Source: Deltaproteobacteria bacterium
GTDB lineage: Bacteria > Desulfobacterota > Desulfomonilia > UBA1062
Length of the DNA stretch: 64,000 bases
Assembly (NCBI GenBank): GCA_029547185.1
Contig: JAKPPU010000014.1
Location: 1-64,000, forward strand
Direction of reading: 5' to 3'
The number at the start of each line of letters is the position of its first letter. Position 1 is the stretch's first letter. Made by a program: the position numbers and the translations under genes. Under the pieces are notes generated by a model. It ran no database searches, was not told where the DNA came from, and saw only the letters and a program-made list of their open reading frames with translations. Shown here piece after piece: positions 52,134 to 57,772 of the stretch.

Positions 52134-52340
52134 ATGAACAGAAGAAATGAACTCAGCGAGAAACAGTGGCAGAAGCTCAAAGGGTATTTGCCTCCCCAGA
52201 AACCGGAAACAGGACGGCCAGCAGAAGACCATCGAAAGATCATCAATGGGATCCTCTGGAAGGTGAGAACAGGAGCTCCCTGGCGGGATATACCGGAGAG
52301 GTATGGGTCATGGGTTACCCTATACAGCCGTTTCCGCCGG
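52134..52340 (+). pseudogene. truncated IS5-family transposase (N-terminal fragment)
   Basis: About 69 codons resemble the N-terminal DUF4096 domain of IS5/IS1031-group transposases: LSEKQWQKLKGYLPP, GRPAEDHRKIINGILW, RTGAPWRDIPERYGSW, and then YSRFRR. The homologous sequence stops there and the DDE catalytic domain is absent. It marks an old insertion next to the integrated element. Confidence 0.8.
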
Positions 52341-52684
52341 TCTTTTCTTTGTTTCCAAGAAGGTTTATAGCCCACGACAATTATATAATATCAATAGTCA
52401 AACAATAATACTTTTGAGGCAATTGACGTTTAAACAGAAGTTCATATTAAGGATGGATATCCCAATAAAAGGGCCAGAGATCCATAGTTCCCGCATCTAT
52501 AAAGGATCATAATTCCTAAAAATTGTACGATAATATCATGCCTCCATGTGATGATCTGTCAGGTCAGATCTAGCCCTTTACAAATAAACCCTTCTTTTAG
52601 GGAATAGCTACAATTTAGCTACATATTCAAGCATAGCAAGGGTTTTATCTGGGTTTTATTTTGCGTAAGTCAATGAAATAAGGA
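52341..52684. other. AT-rich stretch left of tRNA-Arg
   Basis: No gene, strong hairpin or recognised repeat is seen between the transposase fragment and tRNA-Arg. Confidence 0.4.
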
Positions 52685-52758
52685 TGCGCCCAGCAGGACT
52701 CGAACCTGCGACCTTTTGATTCGTAGTCAAACGCTCTATCCAACTGAGCTATGGGCGC
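52685..52758 (-). tRNA. tRNA-Arg (anticodon ACG), reconstituted by the integrated element
   Basis: Read on the minus strand: GCGCCCATAGCTCAGTTGG, anticodon arm with loop CTACGAA (anticodon ACG), T-loop GGTTCGAGTCC and acceptor 3' strand TGGGCGC plus A. CCA is not encoded. The first 40 bases are identical to the copy at the other end of the element, so the 5' half including the anticodon was supplied by the element, while the 3' half is chromosomal. Confidence 0.97.
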
Positions 52759-52762
52759 ATAA
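52719..52762. repeat. attachment-site repeat, left copy (within tRNA-Arg)
   Basis: A 44-base sequence from ATTCGTAGTC to GGGCGCATAA, identical to 57194-57237. It covers the first 40 bases of tRNA-Arg plus 4 upstream bases. Identity ends just 3' of the anticodon. Confidence 0.92.
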
Positions 52763-52776
52763 CTAAGTAGAGCCTG

Positions 52777-52805
52777 TATATAGAGGGAAATGCCTTCATA
52801 GTCAA
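52777..52805 (-). promoter_or_regulatory. element-borne promoter for tRNA-Arg
   Basis: On the minus strand TTGACT, exactly 17 bases, then TATATA, with the -10 box about 18 bases upstream of the mature tRNA 5' end. The -35 box overlaps the last bases of the integrase gene. It replaces the original promoter, which now sits at 57249-57277. Confidence 0.75.
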
Positions 52806-53857
52806 TTCTGAAAATTGTGCAGTTTTTGTGCAGTTGGCGTATCATTCAATACTCCATCGAGTACATCAACTGCCCTAACCTTATGCCCTGGTGCAAGGTG
52901 GGCATATCTCAAAGTCATAGTAAGGGTTTTATGTCCGAGAAGTTCCTTTACTGTTGTAAGGTCAATTCCCGCCATAACGAGCTGAGAGGCAAAGGTATGT
53001 CTCAGGTCATGGAAGTGAAAGTCATTGATCTTGGCTTTCTTGCAAGCTGAATGGAATGACCTTTTCACATCCTGATATACTTTCCCGGTCTTTGGATCAT
53101 GGAATACATATGGGATATCTATACGCCGAACAACTGTCTTTTGTAGGGTATCCCTCAAAGATCCATTTATGGGAATTTCTCTCCTATCTCCATTCTTGGT
53201 TACATCGAGAAGGATGAATCCATGTTTCAAGTCTACCTGATCCCATTTGAGTCCGAGTATCTCCCCTCTTCTCATGCCCGTGTTCAAGGCCGTTATGACA
53301 ATGGGCTTGAGATGTTTATCAGATGCATTGATAAGGTTCTGGCATTCATCCTTTGAGAGATATCTAAGCCGCCTGTTGTTCTCAGGCAGGAGCTTAACCT
53401 TTCTTATGCGTTTCAATGATGCTTCCTCAAGCATGTCCCATTCAACAGCCTTTGTGAACATATGCTTCAACGTGGCTAGAAAACGGTTAATAGTAGCAGG
53501 TTTCTTTTCCTTCTGAAGCTCTTCTGTCTGGAACTGTTCAACCATCATCGTGCTGAATCTTCTCAATGGCATAGCTCCGAAGGTATCTTCCAGATGGGTA
53601 ATGAAAGACTTCTTAGATTTGTATGACCTTTGCCTTTCTGCCCATTTCCTGTACTCTTCACACAATTCCTTGAAGGTGTGATTCTTGATTACCTTGATTT
53701 CCGGCATCTTCCCCTCTTTGATGCCCTGCTTTCGTTCAAGAAGCAAACTTTCGGCTTTCTTGAACTTGTCTGATCCAGTTGATTCTCTCACGATACGACC
53801 ATCAAGCCCTGAATACCTAATCCAATAGACATTACCCCTTTTGTAAATCCCTTTCAT
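52802..53857 (-). CDS. int: tyrosine recombinase (integrase)
   Basis: A 351-residue phage-type integrase. It has an N-terminal arm-binding-like region (GIYKRGNVYWIRYSG), a SAM-like core-binding domain (residues about 60-150) and a catalytic domain with R in GMRRGEILGLKWDQVDL, HxxR in HDLRHTFASQL, the second H in LLGHKTLTMTLRYAHL and its nucleophile tyrosine. The start at 53857 has GGAGGTG upstream; a longer frame lacks one. It ends 44 bases from the tRNA-Arg gene it is inferred to have recombined with, on the same strand. Confidence 0.93.
   Translation of the reverse strand: MKGIYKRGNVYWIRYSGLDGRIVRESTGSDKFKKAESLLLERKQGIKEGKMPEIKVIKNHTFKELCEEYRKWAERQRSYKSKKSFITHLEDTFGAMPLRRFSTMMVEQFQTEELQKEKKPATINRFLATLKHMFTKAVEWDMLEEASLKRIRKVKLLPENNRRLRYLSKDECQNLINASDKHLKPIVITALNTGMRRGEILGLKWDQVDLKHGFILLDVTKNGDRREIPINGSLRDTLQKTVVRRIDIPYVFHDPKTGKVYQDVKRSFHSACKKAKINDFHFHDLRHTFASQLVMAGIDLTTVKELLGHKTLTMTLRYAHLAPGHKVRAVDVLDGVLNDTPTAQKLHNFQN
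52814..52833. repeat. paired TGTGCA motif, left end (putative integrase arm site)
   Basis: Two TTGTGCAG units 11 bases apart, 52 bases inside the left attachment repeat and within the 3' end of the integrase gene. Similar pairs occur at 54112-54132 and 57055-57073. Confidence 0.5.
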
Positions 53858-54021
53858 AAAGCACCTCCATCTATCTTTTCTCGCATTTCTGCGCTTGGCA
53901 GCAGGAAAGCACAAAGGGAGCATATGCATGGATTAAACGAGGGCTTTAGATATTGATTCACAAAAGGAAATGATATTAGATGTTCACCAGCCATGCACTT
54001 GCTACCTCAAGTGTTTGGTTA

Positions 54022-54056
54022 GGTTCGGCGTGGTGTTACCAGCACTACGCTGAACC
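54022..54056 (+). repeat. 14-bp inverted repeat
   Basis: GGTTCGGCGTGGTG and CACTACGCTGAACC pair over 14 positions with two G-U wobbles if transcribed on the plus strand (two A-C mismatches on the minus strand); the loop is 7 bases and GTTTTAAC follows. It could be a terminator for plus-strand transcription or a protein-binding palindrome. Confidence 0.5.
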
Positions 54057-54111
54057 GTTTTAACTATACTCTTTACTGCCAGCGAACACAAGAAAAATCC
54101 AATATTCCGTA

Positions 54112-54132
54112 GTGCACAATTCACTGCACAGT
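54112..54132. repeat. paired TGTGCA motif (inverted), upstream of the integrase gene
   Basis: TGCACA occurs twice, 12 bases apart (the reverse complement of the motif pairs near the two element ends). Placed about 55 bases downstream of the HTH gene and 255 bases upstream of the integrase start. Confidence 0.5.
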
Positions 54133-54187
54133 TATTTCTAACAATTTGATTTAACATTATTATTTATCCCTATCATTTGATACAATA

Positions 54188-54466
54188 TCAAACGGCCACT
54201 TTCATGCTTTTCTTCTCAAAATGCTTATCAATGACCGATTTCTTGAACCGAGTATATTTTCCAGCTTTAAAGTAGGGAATTGCATTAAGCTGCACTTGCT
54301 TATAGATCCAGGTGGTTTCTACCTTGAGATAAGCCGCAAGACCTTTCACATCGAGGATATCATCGCTATCCCTGCCCTTGTTTGCCCTTGTAAGGATAGG
54401 GTTTAAAAGTTCAAGCACTCTCTGTGCAATTGCTTCAATATCCTGTTGTTCAAGCTCTGTCTTCAT
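54188..54466 (-). CDS. MerR-type HTH protein, excisionase candidate
   Basis: A 92-residue protein with a winged HTH_17 domain in its C-terminal half (LDVKGLAAYLKVETTWIYKQV, AIPYFKAGKYTRFKKSVID). Small proteins of this type beside an integrase are usually excisionases (Xis/AlpA). It is on the same strand as the integrase and upstream of it. AGAGGA lies immediately before the ATG. Confidence 0.75.
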   Translation of the reverse strand: MKTELEQQDIEAIAQRVLELLNPILTRANKGRDSDDILDVKGLAAYLKVETTWIYKQVQLNAIPYFKAGKYTRFKKSVIDKHFEKKSMKVAV

Positions 54467-54747
54467 ATCCTCTACCCGCTTGAGTGCCGGTATGATTCAC
54501 CAGGCATCTTGTAAAAGAAAATGGCCGTTTTCCCGCTTGCATGGTTTTGGAGGTTTCAAAGACACAGTTTCTAAAGACTAGGACAGGGACAACCTCACCC
54601 CTACCCCTGGTATATATAGTTATACTGAGGTGGGGCTCACCCGAATGAAGGATGAAAGGAAATTTTGCGCCGATTACCCTCTTGCCCCTAGTGATGAGGT
54701 TTTCCGTTAGATTTAGTGTAATTTTTCGGGTGAGGTTTTTAACCACT
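54467..54747. other. intergenic region with GAGGTGGGGCTCA repeats
   Basis: A 13-base sequence GAGGTGGGGCTCA occurs at 54627-54639 and again at 54776-54788 (the latter in the end of the next gene), and the related GGGTGAGG/CCTCACCC at 54593-54600, 54728-54735 and 54772-54779. Several of these fold into small hairpins. They may be protein-binding iterons. A 98-codon frame spanning this stretch is not convincing. Confidence 0.45.
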
Positions 54748-55293
54748 TCAAATCTCCATTTCTGGCCCTTCGGGTGAGGTGGGGCTCATCCGTTCAGTGA
54801 GGTAGACCTCATGCGAAAATTTGCCTTTCCTTGCCTCGTTTATTCTCTTGAGGTTGTCGTTGAAGCAAAGAGTCTTTGGGATCTCTGGCTTAATAAATCG
54901 GGAGGTTCCGTAATACTGCCAATCATCCACGAGCATATAAAGGCTTGATACCCTCTCCCCTTGAAGTGTCCCGCCTTGCTCCTGTACCCTTATAAAACCA
55001 TGAGATATAAGCTGCTCGATGCAATCACGGAAGGTGCGGCCATTGATACCCCATAGCTCCCTTGCTTCTCTATAGGTGAACATGAGGTTTCGGTTTTCAT
55101 AAATGCGCTTTGTCTTTTTCCCCTTACCCTCTTTGTACCAAGTGCGCCGATGCATAAAGAGCATGAGAACAAACTTCGCTGTATTGCTCAGGTCAATGTA
55201 TGCCTTTGACCTCATCATGCGCCCCGGTATCCGTACCTCTTTCTTGTCTGACCATCCGAATCGGGAGAGGGATTTTTCATCGGGTGCTTTCAT
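54748..55293 (-). CDS. winged-helix protein, replication-initiator-like
   Basis: A 181-residue basic protein. The N-terminal part (RMMRSKAYIDLSNTAKFVLM, FMHRRTWYKEG) and the middle (LMFTYREARELWGINGRTF, DCIEQLISHGFIRVQEQ) look like a winged helix of the type seen in plasmid and island replication initiators and helper proteins. The start overlaps the end of the preceding ORF by 17 bases. Function is inferred from fold-like pattern only. The first segment resembles the product of that preceding ORF. Confidence 0.6.
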   Translation of the reverse strand: MKAPDEKSLSRFGWSDKKEVRIPGRMMRSKAYIDLSNTAKFVLMLFMHRRTWYKEGKGKKTKRIYENRNLMFTYREARELWGINGRTFRDCIEQLISHGFIRVQEQGGTLQGERVSSLYMLVDDWQYYGTSRFIKPEIPKTLCFNDNLKRINEARKGKFSHEVYLTERMSPTSPEGPEMEI

Positions 55294-55462
55294 GTTTTTC
55301 CCCTCGCTGCTTATCGAGCATGAGCATCAGGATTATCTTTGCCTCATCTGTGAGCGCCCGATACGCCGAAGACTTCAAGATATCCTCAGAGATAGGCAAA
55401 ACCTTCTCAAGCCATTCCCGCTTCTGGCTTATAGTCTTGAGGGTGCCAGGTGGTCTAAGCAT
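55277..55462 (-). CDS. small protein related to the adjacent winged-helix protein
   Basis: A 61-residue frame beginning MLRPPGTLKTISQ, with GGGGAGG 9 bases upstream; its ATG overlaps the stop of the zinc-knuckle gene. Its segment ILKSSAYRALTDEAKIILML aligns with MMRSKAYIDLSNTAKFVLML of the next protein, so the two share the first helical unit. It lacks the rest of the winged helix. It is probably a truncated duplicate or a small regulator of its larger relative. Confidence 0.55.
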   Translation of the reverse strand: MLRPPGTLKTISQKREWLEKVLPISEDILKSSAYRALTDEAKIILMLMLDKQRGEKHESTR

Positions 55463-55811
55463 GGGCAGATGCCTCCCCTGGTATGATATCATCATCCGAG
55501 GTCGTGAAATTGGCTGTATATGGCAAATTTTCAGAAAGCACATGGATATTTGAAGGCAGTTCCGCTTCTGATTTCCTATAAGGATAGAGAGTGCATTGAG
55601 TCACCGGGCAAAGATGCACTTCATAACGGGATACATTACACCATAGACAATATCGCTTGATTGCCCTATCTCTTGCCTTCGCATTCTGTTTGCCTTGCCC
55701 TGTCCTGTAAGGGTGAAGCGGACAGTCTGCATGATGGCAGTCTTTAACCTCGGCAAGACTTCCTGCACTGCAGTCTATACAACGCTTGCGAATGGCTGAA
55801 CGTCTGTTCAT
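55455..55811 (-). CDS. duplicated zinc-knuckle protein
   Basis: A 118-residue protein with two similar Cys clusters. The first is RCIDCSAGSLAEVKDC followed by CPLHPYR, the second YCLWCNVSRYEVHLC followed by CTLYPYR. Each has CxxC, a third Cys, a fourth Cys and the same xLxPYR ending, so each probably binds one zinc ion. The C-terminal 40 residues are acidic and unstructured. Proteins with this knuckle occur in mobile elements; the function is unknown. Its ATG overlaps the end of the HTH gene (ATGA). Confidence 0.65.
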   Translation of the reverse strand: MNRRSAIRKRCIDCSAGSLAEVKDCHHADCPLHPYRTGQGKQNAKARDRAIKRYCLWCNVSRYEVHLCPVTQCTLYPYRKSEAELPSNIHVLSENLPYTANFTTSDDDIIPGEASAHA

Positions 55812-56029
55812 TGTACCTCCATCGCTTCGACTTGGGAAATTGGTTTATCAAGGTTGCAGCTATGAAGGTTTCTTTCTATGAAATTCTGAAGGTCTTCGAT
55901 TCTGAATAGGACTCTTGTACCGATCTTGATGAAAGCGATATCTCCCGCCTTCCTTAATTGATCGAGTTTCAACGCACTGATTCCGAGAAAATTTGCAGCC
56001 TGTAACTTTGACAATAGACGTTCGTTCAT
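55808..56029 (-). CDS. small MerR-type HTH protein
   Basis: A 73-residue protein with an HTH_17 domain (LLSKLQAANFLGISALKLDQL, IAFIKIGTRVLFRIEDLQNF). It is the first gene of the minus-strand operon HTH-knuckle-small-winged helix, with GGGAGG upstream. It may be a second excisionase-like protein or the operon repressor. Confidence 0.75.
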   Translation of the reverse strand: MNERLLSKLQAANFLGISALKLDQLRKAGDIAFIKIGTRVLFRIEDLQNFIERNLHSCNLDKPISQVEAMEVQ

Positions 56030-56479
56030 GACTTGTTGTCCTCCCTTTGATTTGTTTGGTTTTGTCTCTGAATATATTGTTGCATTGCGGGGTAACTGGA
56101 CTGGTCCAGAGAGACATATTTGACAATCTGAGCATGCCTACCTTCATGTATATGTTGTTGCTTGAGAAACCCGATTTGGGCAGTAATTGTTATTATCTTG
56201 TAAGATATTATAATTAGTTGATATATCTAATGCGATGCAGCTATTTTATAAGGGTATTGTTATGACAATTGGTTGTTGATTTAAGCGAAGATGGTGCTCT
56301 TTAATTGGAATATTTTATATCGAGGAAGAGGTTGATAATGAAGTTACTATAATCATAACACGCAAAACCCATTTGATTTTGTATGATATTATGATACCTT
56401 ATTAACAGAAATATTCTTCCATCCATCGACTACACAACAAAAAGTCAAGATATGTCGAATATCGTTAAAGGAGAAATAA
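56030..56479 (+). other. divergent control region of the integrated element
   Basis: An A+T-rich gap between the minus-strand operon and the plus-strand repeat-protein gene. It contains TTGTTA, 16 bases, TATAAT (56187-56214) reading toward the repeat protein, a good sigma-70 promoter candidate 265 bases upstream of its start. No gene is seen. Confidence 0.45.
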
Positions 56480-56854
56480 ATGAGGAATTGCATAGTTATC
56501 CTAACATTGATGATAACTCTGTCCTTAATAACCTCTGACTCTTGGGCACAAGCCTTCAATTCGAAAGGCAAGAGCATAGAACGAGTATACGATGAGGAAG
56601 ATATTATTTTGGGTAAGCCAAGGATCGGGGCACAGCCCTCTAAAGTTATAGAAACCGATACAGATGGCACTAAACGGGTGTATGAGAAGAAAGATATCTT
56701 TTTGGGTAAACCAAAAATTGGGGCAGAGCCCTCAAAAGTTATTGAAACTGATAATAATGGCATCAGGCGAGTATACGACAAAAAAGATGTCTTTATGGGG
56801 AAACCGAGAATTGGTGCACAACCAACTCAAGTAATCGAATCAGAGGACGAATAA
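56480..56854 (+). CDS. secreted protein of three 31-residue repeats
   Basis: A 124-residue protein with AAAGGAG upstream and an N-terminal signal peptide (CIVILTLMITLSLITS, cleavage near SWA/QA). From residue 35 to the end it consists of three tandem 31-residue repeats with the pattern RVYDxxDIxLGKPxIGAxPSxVIETDxxG; copy 2 (66-96) and the shorter copy 3 (97-124) are highly similar to copy 1. It has no cysteine in the mature part. No family is recognised. It is the only plus-strand gene of the element, placed near its far end, so it is likely cargo rather than part of mobility. Confidence 0.7.
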   Translation: MRNCIVILTLMITLSLITSDSWAQAFNSKGKSIERVYDEEDIILGKPRIGAQPSKVIETDTDGTKRVYEKKDIFLGKPKIGAEPSKVIETDNNGIRRVYDKKDVFMGKPRIGAQPTQVIESEDE

Positions 56855-57054
56855 AAAATATCCTCAATGGATAGAAAAATCGAGATTATAGTTTATAAAT
56901 ATTTTTTGCCTGTCTTGAATAAATCAACACAAAGTAGCAAGTGAACAGTGAGAGGCAGTACTGTACCTTTACGTACGCTGACCACCTTTGCGCAGAGGGT
57001 ACCGGGGGAGAGCAAGCTAATAGTAGGCAGTACGTACCCTGTAAGCCTTCCAAT

Positions 57055-57073
57055 ATTGTGCAGTAATTGTGCA
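57055..57073. repeat. paired TGTGCA motif, right end (putative integrase arm site)
   Basis: Two TTGTGCA units 11 bases apart (separated by GTAA), 121 bases inside the right attachment repeat, in the same orientation as the pair at the left end. Confidence 0.5.
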
Positions 57074-57089
57074 CCAGACAAGAAAGAAC

Positions 57090-57125
57090 AAGGGGTAAAA
57101 CCGCGTAAATGGTCTTACCCCTTTT
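57090..57125 (+). terminator. hairpin terminator near the right element end
   Basis: AAGGGGTAAAACC and GGTCTTACCCCTT pair at 12 of 13 positions around an 8-base loop, followed by TT on the plus strand; A-rich sequence on the other side may make it work in both directions. It would end plus-strand transcription from the repeat-protein gene before it reaches the attachment site. Confidence 0.65.
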
Positions 57126-57193
57126 GTTCATATATTCAGACAGGATCAAGCATTAGCTACTATCGGGTATAACTCCCGAATGTCCTTGTATTC

Positions 57194-57237
57194 ATTCGTA
57201 GTCAAACGCTCTATCCAACTGAGCTATGGGCGCATAA
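57194..57237. repeat. attachment-site repeat, right copy (orphan 5' half of tRNA-Arg)
   Basis: Identical over 44 bases to 52719-52762. Here the tRNA sequence stops just 3' of the anticodon and continues into element DNA, so it cannot make a functional tRNA. Confidence 0.92.
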
Positions 57238-57248
57238 AAGACTTCACG

Positions 57249-57277
57249 TTTATAATGGGAATTTCTCTATGAGTCAA
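57249..57277 (-). promoter_or_regulatory. original, now orphaned tRNA-Arg promoter
   Basis: On the minus strand TTGACT, 17 bases, TATAAA, ending 15 bases before the tRNA 5' half. Same spacing and near-identical boxes as the element-borne promoter at 52777-52805. Transcription from here would enter the element's right end. Confidence 0.75.
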
Positions 57278-57349: not shown

Positions 57350-57772
57350 TTATGAGGCCTTCTGCCAGTTCTCCATGACCCTGAGCTTGACCTCGGCCTT
57401 GCGGTGCTTGAGCTCCCACCTCACATATTCGGGGTCGTCCTTGCTCAAGGCCTTGAGCCTCTCCTCGGCCTGCTCGATCTCGGCCTTCACGACTTCGGCC
57501 TCGATATCCTCGGCCAGGATCGCGGACTCGGCCAGGATGATGACCCTATCGCCGATGATCTCGGCAAAGCCTCCGCCCACAGCCATGTAGATGTCCCTGT
57601 CCTCGGCCTTGGCAATGACCTGGCCGGGCTTGAGCGTCGTGAGAAACGGTGTGTGACCGATCAGCACGCCGAACTCGCCGGCACTCCCCGGGGCGATGAC
57701 CTCGATCACCTTGCGGCTCAAGACCGCCTTCTCGGGAGTAACGACGTCGAGCTGCATATATTCTTCAGCCAT
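57350..57772 (-). CDS. atpC: ATP synthase epsilon subunit
   Basis: A 140-residue F1 subunit: N-terminal beta sandwich (LDVVTPEKAVLSRKVIEVIAPGSAGEFGVLIGHTPF in two blocks) and C-terminal helical pair (EAEVVKAEIEQAEERLKAL). It regulates rotation and ATP hydrolysis. Last gene of the operon, 18 bases after atpD. Confidence 0.95.
   Translation of the reverse strand: MAEEYMQLDVVTPEKAVLSRKVIEVIAPGSAGEFGVLIGHTPFLTTLKPGQVIAKAEDRDIYMAVGGGFAEIIGDRVIILAESAILAEDIEAEVVKAEIEQAEERLKALSKDDPEYVRWELKHRKAEVKLRVMENWQKAS

Follow-up and report, generated by a model that had tools for sequence, protein, structure and literature searches.

How can a tRNA gene stay expressible after an integrating element has cut it off from its own promoter? 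This question is raised by a stretch of 64,000 nucleotides from a Deltaproteobacteria bacterium (contig JAKPPU010000014.1, positions 1 to 64,000), here called the window, in which a 4.5-kb element, as read from the sequence, is inserted in the anticodon loop of a tRNA-Arg(ACG) gene. We consider it likely that this is an integrase element whose own attachment site (attP) carries a tRNA promoter captured from a host together with the 5' half of the tRNA gene. The parts of the locus on which the argument depends are listed below (ORF, open reading frame).

52685..52758, minus strand: tRNA-Arg(ACG), a hybrid gene with the 5' half from the element and the 3' half chromosomal (covariance model)
52719..52762, minus strand: element-side attachment core, made of the tRNA 5' half and reaching one base beyond the anticodon loop (identical to 57194-57237)
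52777..52805, minus strand: promoter of the tRNA on the element side, TTGACT-N17-TATATA; capture from a tRNA-Arg gene of a host is probable (pattern and matrix)
52802..53857, minus strand: tyrosine integrase with its stop codon in the -35 box; the ORF may begin as far upstream as 53929 (PF00589 E 4.6e-35, phrog_1)
52815..52833, no strand: predicted arm-type integrase repeats with 11-bp spacing, inside the integrase 3' end and about 10 bp upstream of the -35 box (repeat and word-pair search)
57055..57073, no strand: far-side arm-type repeats, TTGTGCA, with 11-bp spacing (repeat and word-pair search)
57086..57129, minus strand: terminator-like hairpin within the element, close to its right end and following the displaced promoter (scan 57123-57090; -24.8 kcal/mol, z -5.3)
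57194..57237, minus strand: far-side attachment core, the displaced and orphaned tRNA 5' half (repeat search)
57249..57277, minus strand: ancestral chromosomal tRNA-Arg promoter TTGACT-N17-TATAAA, now parted from the whole tRNA (conserved in family genomes)
57350..57772, minus strand: conserved right-hand neighbour, an ORF taken by eye to be atpC (ORF list; flank conserved in relatives)

The interrupted tRNA gene and its unoccupied site

The tRNA-Arg(ACG) gene was placed at 52682-52759 on the minus strand by ARAGORN and at 52685-52758 by the covariance model, and its 5' end points toward the integrase gene, which sits at the left end of the element. The direct repeat consists of 44 identical bases (52719-52762 and 57194-57237), or of 47 bases if one mismatch is counted, and spans tRNA positions from about -4 to +40, ending one base beyond the 7-nt anticodon loop. 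A first-pass annotation had described these repeats as covering the 5' half of tRNA-Arg up to just past the anticodon, and the coordinates of repeat and tRNA bear this out. The anticodon stem TTTGA/TCAAA is a perfect inverted repeat flanking CTACGAA, which is the usual form of an integrase core. The locus has an intact tRNA at one end and the cognate fragment, directly oriented, at the other, as such elements do. It does not belong to the 3'-replacing class, because the element gives the 5' half and the resident promoter is displaced; with the 5' part supplied by the element and a displaced 5' fragment at the far end it falls in the 5'-replacing (reversed) class. The word TTGTGCA at 11-bp spacing is present inside both ends of the element, and only 17 such spaced word pairs occur in the 64-kb window. 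From this common motif we concluded that both ends belong to one integrase. The G+C content of the element is 37-48%, compared with 50-62% at 40-51 kb and 54-61% to the right of 57.5 kb; the DNA directly left of the tRNA (51.5-52.7 kb) is likewise AT-rich, with about 43% G+C.

The right flank was searched in 60 related genomes, 54 of which matched somewhere, many at tRNA genes only. In 14 of the 23 other genomes of the family an intact tRNA-Arg(ACG) (ARAGORN) was found beside atpC without the element, and the tRNA 5' half continued into atpC as one unbroken alignment in 9 family genomes and as two adjacent pieces in 5. Eight of the remaining family genomes gave tRNA-like matches only, or no match, in this right-flank search. 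A conserved left flank was not found, as past the tRNA 3' end the relatives that were read agree neither with each other nor with the window; therefore the unoccupied site is defined by the right flank and the intact tRNA, not by a two-sided junction. The search for an empty site proposed in the first-pass annotation was in this way answered on one side of the insertion. Since the single-copy site of the relatives carries the TTGACT box upstream of the tRNA, the right-hand promoter is the ancestral one. We also considered the right-hand repeat copy as belonging to the element itself and rejected this, because relatives share that promoter and the atpC neighbour. The integration has indeed, as had been suggested, cut the tRNA-Arg gene off its promoter, and the original promoter and 5' half now lie displaced by 4.5 kb, beside atpC.

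The interrupted gene seems to be the only one of its kind in its genome, a draft of 215 contigs that is 96% complete with 5.3% contamination. The anticodon-arm pattern gave one perfect match for tRNA-Arg(ACG), and no second tRNA-Arg(ACG) was found in the draft genome by this pattern, nor by ARAGORN on 30 tRNA loci, 23 of which were covered in two runs; the census comprised 40 covariance matches, of which 30 had loci for ARAGORN and 10 were covered by the pattern only. The tRNA is presumably essential. The element does not show tRNA-dependent lysogeny, as the tRNA is restored at the junction and the sole other tRNA of the window, a tRNA-Leu, lies outside the element.

Two promoters for one tRNA gene

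Matching minus-strand promoters on both sides of the element had been claimed earlier, and both were found as described, at 52805-52777 and 57277-57249. When one mismatch was allowed, the pattern TTGACT-N17-TATAWA had just these two matches in the 64-kb window (expected 0.09; 0 of 100 shuffles reached two). The reported overlap of the element-side -35 box with the integrase 3' end was likewise seen, the integrase stop codon TGA (52804-52802) lying inside the box. All 15 tRNA-Arg genes examined in the family have a TTGACT box upstream; in 13 of them TATA follows after 17 bp, and in L023 and L024 it lies one base further. Two tRNA-Arg genes outside the family (L025, L027) are without the TTGACT box.

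A matrix was built from the 13 same-family tRNA-Arg promoters, with the window sequence excluded. It gave 30.6 bits for the chromosomal site, 26.6 for the element site and 10.1 for the next site in the window, so that the element promoter ranked second among 127,944 window positions, behind the chromosomal promoter. Outside the host and family tRNA-Arg loci, none of 4,574,584 positions in other loci came within 6 bits of the element site. The 17-base spacer of the element promoter scored 9.07 on its own, a value reached by 0.046% of its shuffles. With an earlier matrix of 16 promoters, which included the chromosomal promoter of the window, the spacers of four picked tRNA promoters of the same genome scored below 0; leave-one-out scores ranged from -13 to 16, and the lowest three (L022, L023, L024) were also weak in the flank match. 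The tRNA 5' half of the window has the allele GTTTGAC in common with L009 and L010, the two best-matching right flanks, while most others have GTTGGAC.

By sequence comparison, the promoter is best supported by its likeness to the tRNA-Arg promoter of the host lineage itself. The consensus scanner reported neither promoter, because its rule demands a final T in the -10 box. As the spacer matches the family promoter and the 5' half has the allele of the window subclade, we concluded that capture from a host in the same bacterial family, and not new evolution, is the probable origin of the element promoter. The first-pass annotation had proposed that the element evolved a replacement promoter. 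A substitute promoter on the element side is there, but its origin by new evolution is less likely than capture, because the spacer and the 5'-half allele fit the host family.

Target orientation among related integrases

To place the element among its relatives, 113 integrase loci were surveyed, in 37 of which no tRNA was called close to the 3' end of the integrase gene. With duplicates (L058, L173) and loci with a gap above 300 bp (L063, L187, L210) excluded, 23 loci, the window included, faced a tRNA 5' end and 48 faced a 3' end; L176, which has tRNAs in both orientations, was labelled by the nearer one. Orientation alone underlies 19 of the 23 5'-facing labels, and the gap is 62-131 bp in L194, L209, L212 and L214. 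Wherever an element-side far half-copy was found, it agreed with the label: a 5'-half copy in the window, L084, L166 and L180, and a 3'-half copy in L071, L074, L075, L081, L085, L086, L145, L157, L182, L184, L197, L210 and L235. The edges of the half-copies lie near the anticodon loop, with 5' copies stopping at tRNA position 38-44 and 3' copies starting at 27-40. Far repeats were sought for six more 5'-facing loci, with extra DNA for L177, L180 and L194 only; L180 alone was positive, and none was found for L177, L194, L193, L083 and L219. Contrary to their 5' label, L168, L170 and L203 carry a 3'-half copy 1.7-5 kb downstream, across the tRNA from the integrase, so that short stretches are bounded by the tRNA and its 3' half; no second integrase of the window integrase family was found at these three loci. 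Eleven further integrase loci comprised L234 and L235 (3'-facing), L242 (5'-facing, apparently the same contig as L203, both having 16,280 bases) and 8 without a tRNA call.

A quick maximum-likelihood tree was made of 80 integrases, including some fragments; on it the orientation labels need 12 changes, at least 3 of which are forced by well-supported branches. The window is the sole 5'-facing row in a group of 35 (25 3'-facing, 9 unlabelled; support 97 in the SH-like approximate likelihood ratio test, SH-aLRT), and this position suggests that the element changed its orientation within a lineage of 3'-facing integrases. Full-length integrases at 62-68% identity point the same way: L071 and L074-L076 face a tRNA 3' end, three of them with a 3'-half repeat, and L072 and L073 had no tRNA call. 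The element also belongs with its 3'-facing relatives because its helix-turn-helix (HTH) protein (54188-54466) and its small protein (55455-55811) have homologues there. Since the anticodon stem-loop is symmetrical, one integrase core could serve with either tRNA half on the integrase side.

We further examined whether all 5'-type elements of the window integrase family bring a recognisable promoter, and this was not borne out by a generic sigma-70 test. A match at p<0.05 next to the tRNA was obtained for 1 of 23 5'-facing loci (L193; the window had p=0.053) and for 20 of 46 3'-facing loci, which have chromosomal promoters; the 46 are the 48 3'-facing rows minus L039 and L069, which were not given to the test. 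On the element side and the displaced side, respectively, the generic scores out of 12 were 9 and 10 for the window, 7 and 10 for L084, 7 and 7 for L166 and 7 and 7 for L180, scores of 7 being no better than shuffles. By the generic consensus L084 therefore has a good promoter on the displaced side and none on the element side. The test is weak and only L084 is informative, because in L166 and L180 even the displaced (ancestral) sides fail. A host-specific matrix was made for the window element only, so that a captured promoter of another kind could escape elsewhere. Some of the other 5'-facing elements may rely on read-through from the integrase gene.

Two side observations concern the 5'-facing loci. 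In all six Omnitrophota rows of the tree (L159, L164, L166, L180, L189, L209) the integrase points at a tRNA 5' end; the gap is 62 bp in L209 and between -19 and 18 bp in the other five. Repeats confirm L166 and L180 only; this is possibly a lineage where 5' integration is the norm. In L164, L170, L174, L178, L188, L189 and L193 the integrase ORF overlaps the 5' part of the tRNA that follows it (negative gap), and the integrase C-terminus would for that reason be tRNA-encoded.

The remaining genes of the window element are as follows.

54188..54466, minus strand: HTH_17 protein, likely an excisionase or regulator (family matches; homologues upstream of integrases in 3'-facing relatives, e.g. 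L071, L074)
54748..55293, minus strand: DnaD-like protein, a weak match (phrog_186 E 1e-4; homologues in L235, L146, L069)
55277..55543, minus strand: small ORF without a family match (ORF list and family searches)
55455..55811, minus strand: small protein kept in two 3'-facing relatives (homologues in L234, which is the same as L228, and L235)
55808..56029, minus strand: HTH_17 protein, excisionase-like (family matches)
56480..56854, plus strand: cargo ORF with three 31-residue repeats (93-nt repeats; Pfam matches below cut-offs only)

The cargo ORF consists mostly of its three repeats, which follow a likely signal peptide, and has no confident family. On the other side of the junction, just past the tRNA 3' end, two more word pairs with 11-bp spacing (TAGCTACA and GGGTTTTA, at 52605-52623 and 52640-52659) resemble integrase arm sites; they sit in AT-rich DNA with a transposase fragment (52134-52370, PF13340). 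A paired GCTAC motif was seen beside the tRNA 3' end or a half-copy in L016, L017, L022 and L005. Together, the word pairs and the paired motif are suggestive of remnants of a 3'-type element, in which case integration into the tRNA may have occurred from either side. Elsewhere in the same genome, a contig (L005, G000:C212, about 1500-1555) has a tRNA-Arg 3'-half copy with the allele of L016 and L017 and also a distant integrase; it may represent a second element or contamination.

Promoter capture, its alternatives and known systems

In the mechanism that we favour, the attP of a small tyrosine-integrase element would contain the 5' half of tRNA-Arg(ACG) and the promoter of that gene, both acquired from a host within the same bacterial family. 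Recombination at the anticodon loop would fuse this incoming segment to the 3' half already in the chromosome, so that an expressible tRNA is formed again, and the chromosomal promoter with its 5' half would end up at the other end of the element. The element promoter would then be the one in use, and the element should be able to excise. The displaced promoter points into the element and is followed by the terminator-like hairpin, which would stop it from reading further. Such insulation is likelier than control of an operon, because the opposite-strand ORF (56480-56854) lies between the hairpin and the minus-strand HTH gene.

Several points speak against this explanation. The generic sigma-70 consensus is borderline for the element promoter, with 9 of 12 matches and shuffle p values of 0.053 and 0.072 in two runs. 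One family genome (G010) matched at the atpC end, but there was no tRNA call in the 600 bases that remain of its contig. The captured promoter was also not seen in an independent insertion, because no second copy of the element was found by integrase searches of the family (24 genomes), of 395 genomes drawn from the phylum and of genome contigs (the best 80 of 539 pattern rows), or in viral contigs by integrase search or exact 5'-half pattern, all in a collection that may omit records very near the window. Three relatives on viral contigs (L245-L247) had no tRNA call. Finally, a spacer that is kept across the family may be functional, and it is possible that the likeness arose by convergence.

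The promoter could in that event have arisen within the element, selected for expression of an essential tRNA. Any element that replaces a 5' half needs a source of transcription, and the position of the integrase stop codon within the -35 box looks as though the sequence had been fitted in place; however, it is the spacer as well as the hexamers that fits the tRNA-Arg promoter of the host family, and we regard such an origin as quite unlikely. A different source of the tRNA would be read-through from the integrase gene, with the promoter-like sequence left as a relic of capture. For archaeal integrations of the pTN3 type at tRNA 5' halves, expression of the tRNA is reported to come from the integrase promoter (PMC8371274). 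In the window the integrase runs straight into the tRNA with a gap of 46 bp, and for 21 of the 22 other 5'-facing integrases the generic test gave no promoter at p<0.05. However, the promoter in the window has retained its two hexamers, its 17-bp spacing and a normal distance from the tRNA, and the usually low transcription of integrases in the integrated state also counts against read-through. As the main source of the tRNA we find it rather unlikely, and because it shares the capture step with the explanation that we favour, the two overlap in probability. The draft state of the genome (215 contigs, 5.3% contamination) and the small size of the element could also indicate an assembly artefact of the metagenome or a dead remnant. 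This is highly improbable given the intact integrase ORF, the exact attachment repeats, the matching arm sites at the two ends and the synteny of the right flank with that of relatives.

If promoter capture is accepted, the predicted arm sites about 10 bp upstream of the captured -35 box imply that the integrase could influence the tRNA promoter. With the integrase stop codon within the box as well, binding of integrase or excisionase could modulate an essential tRNA. The exchange of promoters could in this way give the element leverage, as the captured promoter would control the only known tRNA-Arg(ACG) gene and the host promoter would be held by the hairpin. We find this extension very doubtful; if true, it would tie survival of the host to the state of the element.

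An element reversing the usual target orientation was reportedly described by Zhao and Williams in 2002, to go by the title of their work. Integration at the 5' half is a known but rare mode: 159 of 3,919 Islander tDNA islands carry a 5' tDNA fragment (PMC4383910), 9 of 88 prophage-like sequences of Sinorhizobium meliloti are of the 5' type (PMC11476347), and one thaumarchaeal case is described together with earlier citations. In the Islander and S. meliloti cases, as in the window, the integrase replaces the 5' part of the tRNA gene and a displaced 5' fragment is left. The word promoter is absent from the main texts of these two reports, whereas the window promoter resembles the tRNA promoter of the host family, and the window differs further by its reversal within a 3'-facing integrase clade. 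Integrases like that of pTN3 share with the window the tRNA 5' half as target, a site around the anticodon loop and restoration of the tRNA; reportedly their tRNA depends on the integrase promoter for expression, whereas the window has a tRNA-type promoter-like site between integrase and tRNA (PMC8371274). The tRNA-dependent lysogeny of mycobacteriophages is similar in that an essential single tRNA gene is the target and the lost function is supplied by the element, with a promoter that was demonstrated by a reporter. The mycobacteriophages supply a whole tRNA gene, in contrast to half a gene and a promoter (PMC10865867). In ICEKp1 a host tRNA promoter also reads into the element and is attenuated by a terminator-like stem-loop, attenuation being predicted in the window; there the host promoter drives the integrase gene, whereas in the window the promoters are exchanged (PMC13023037). 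Searches of the open-licence literature yielded no description of a 5'-type element with a substitute promoter similar to the tRNA promoter of its host.

The window element thus seems to solve the expression problem of 5' integration by promoter capture. Taken together with the changes of orientation on the integrase tree, this case makes the frequency and the route of such reversals testable, and it likewise becomes testable whether promoter capture or integrase read-through is what pays for the reversal.

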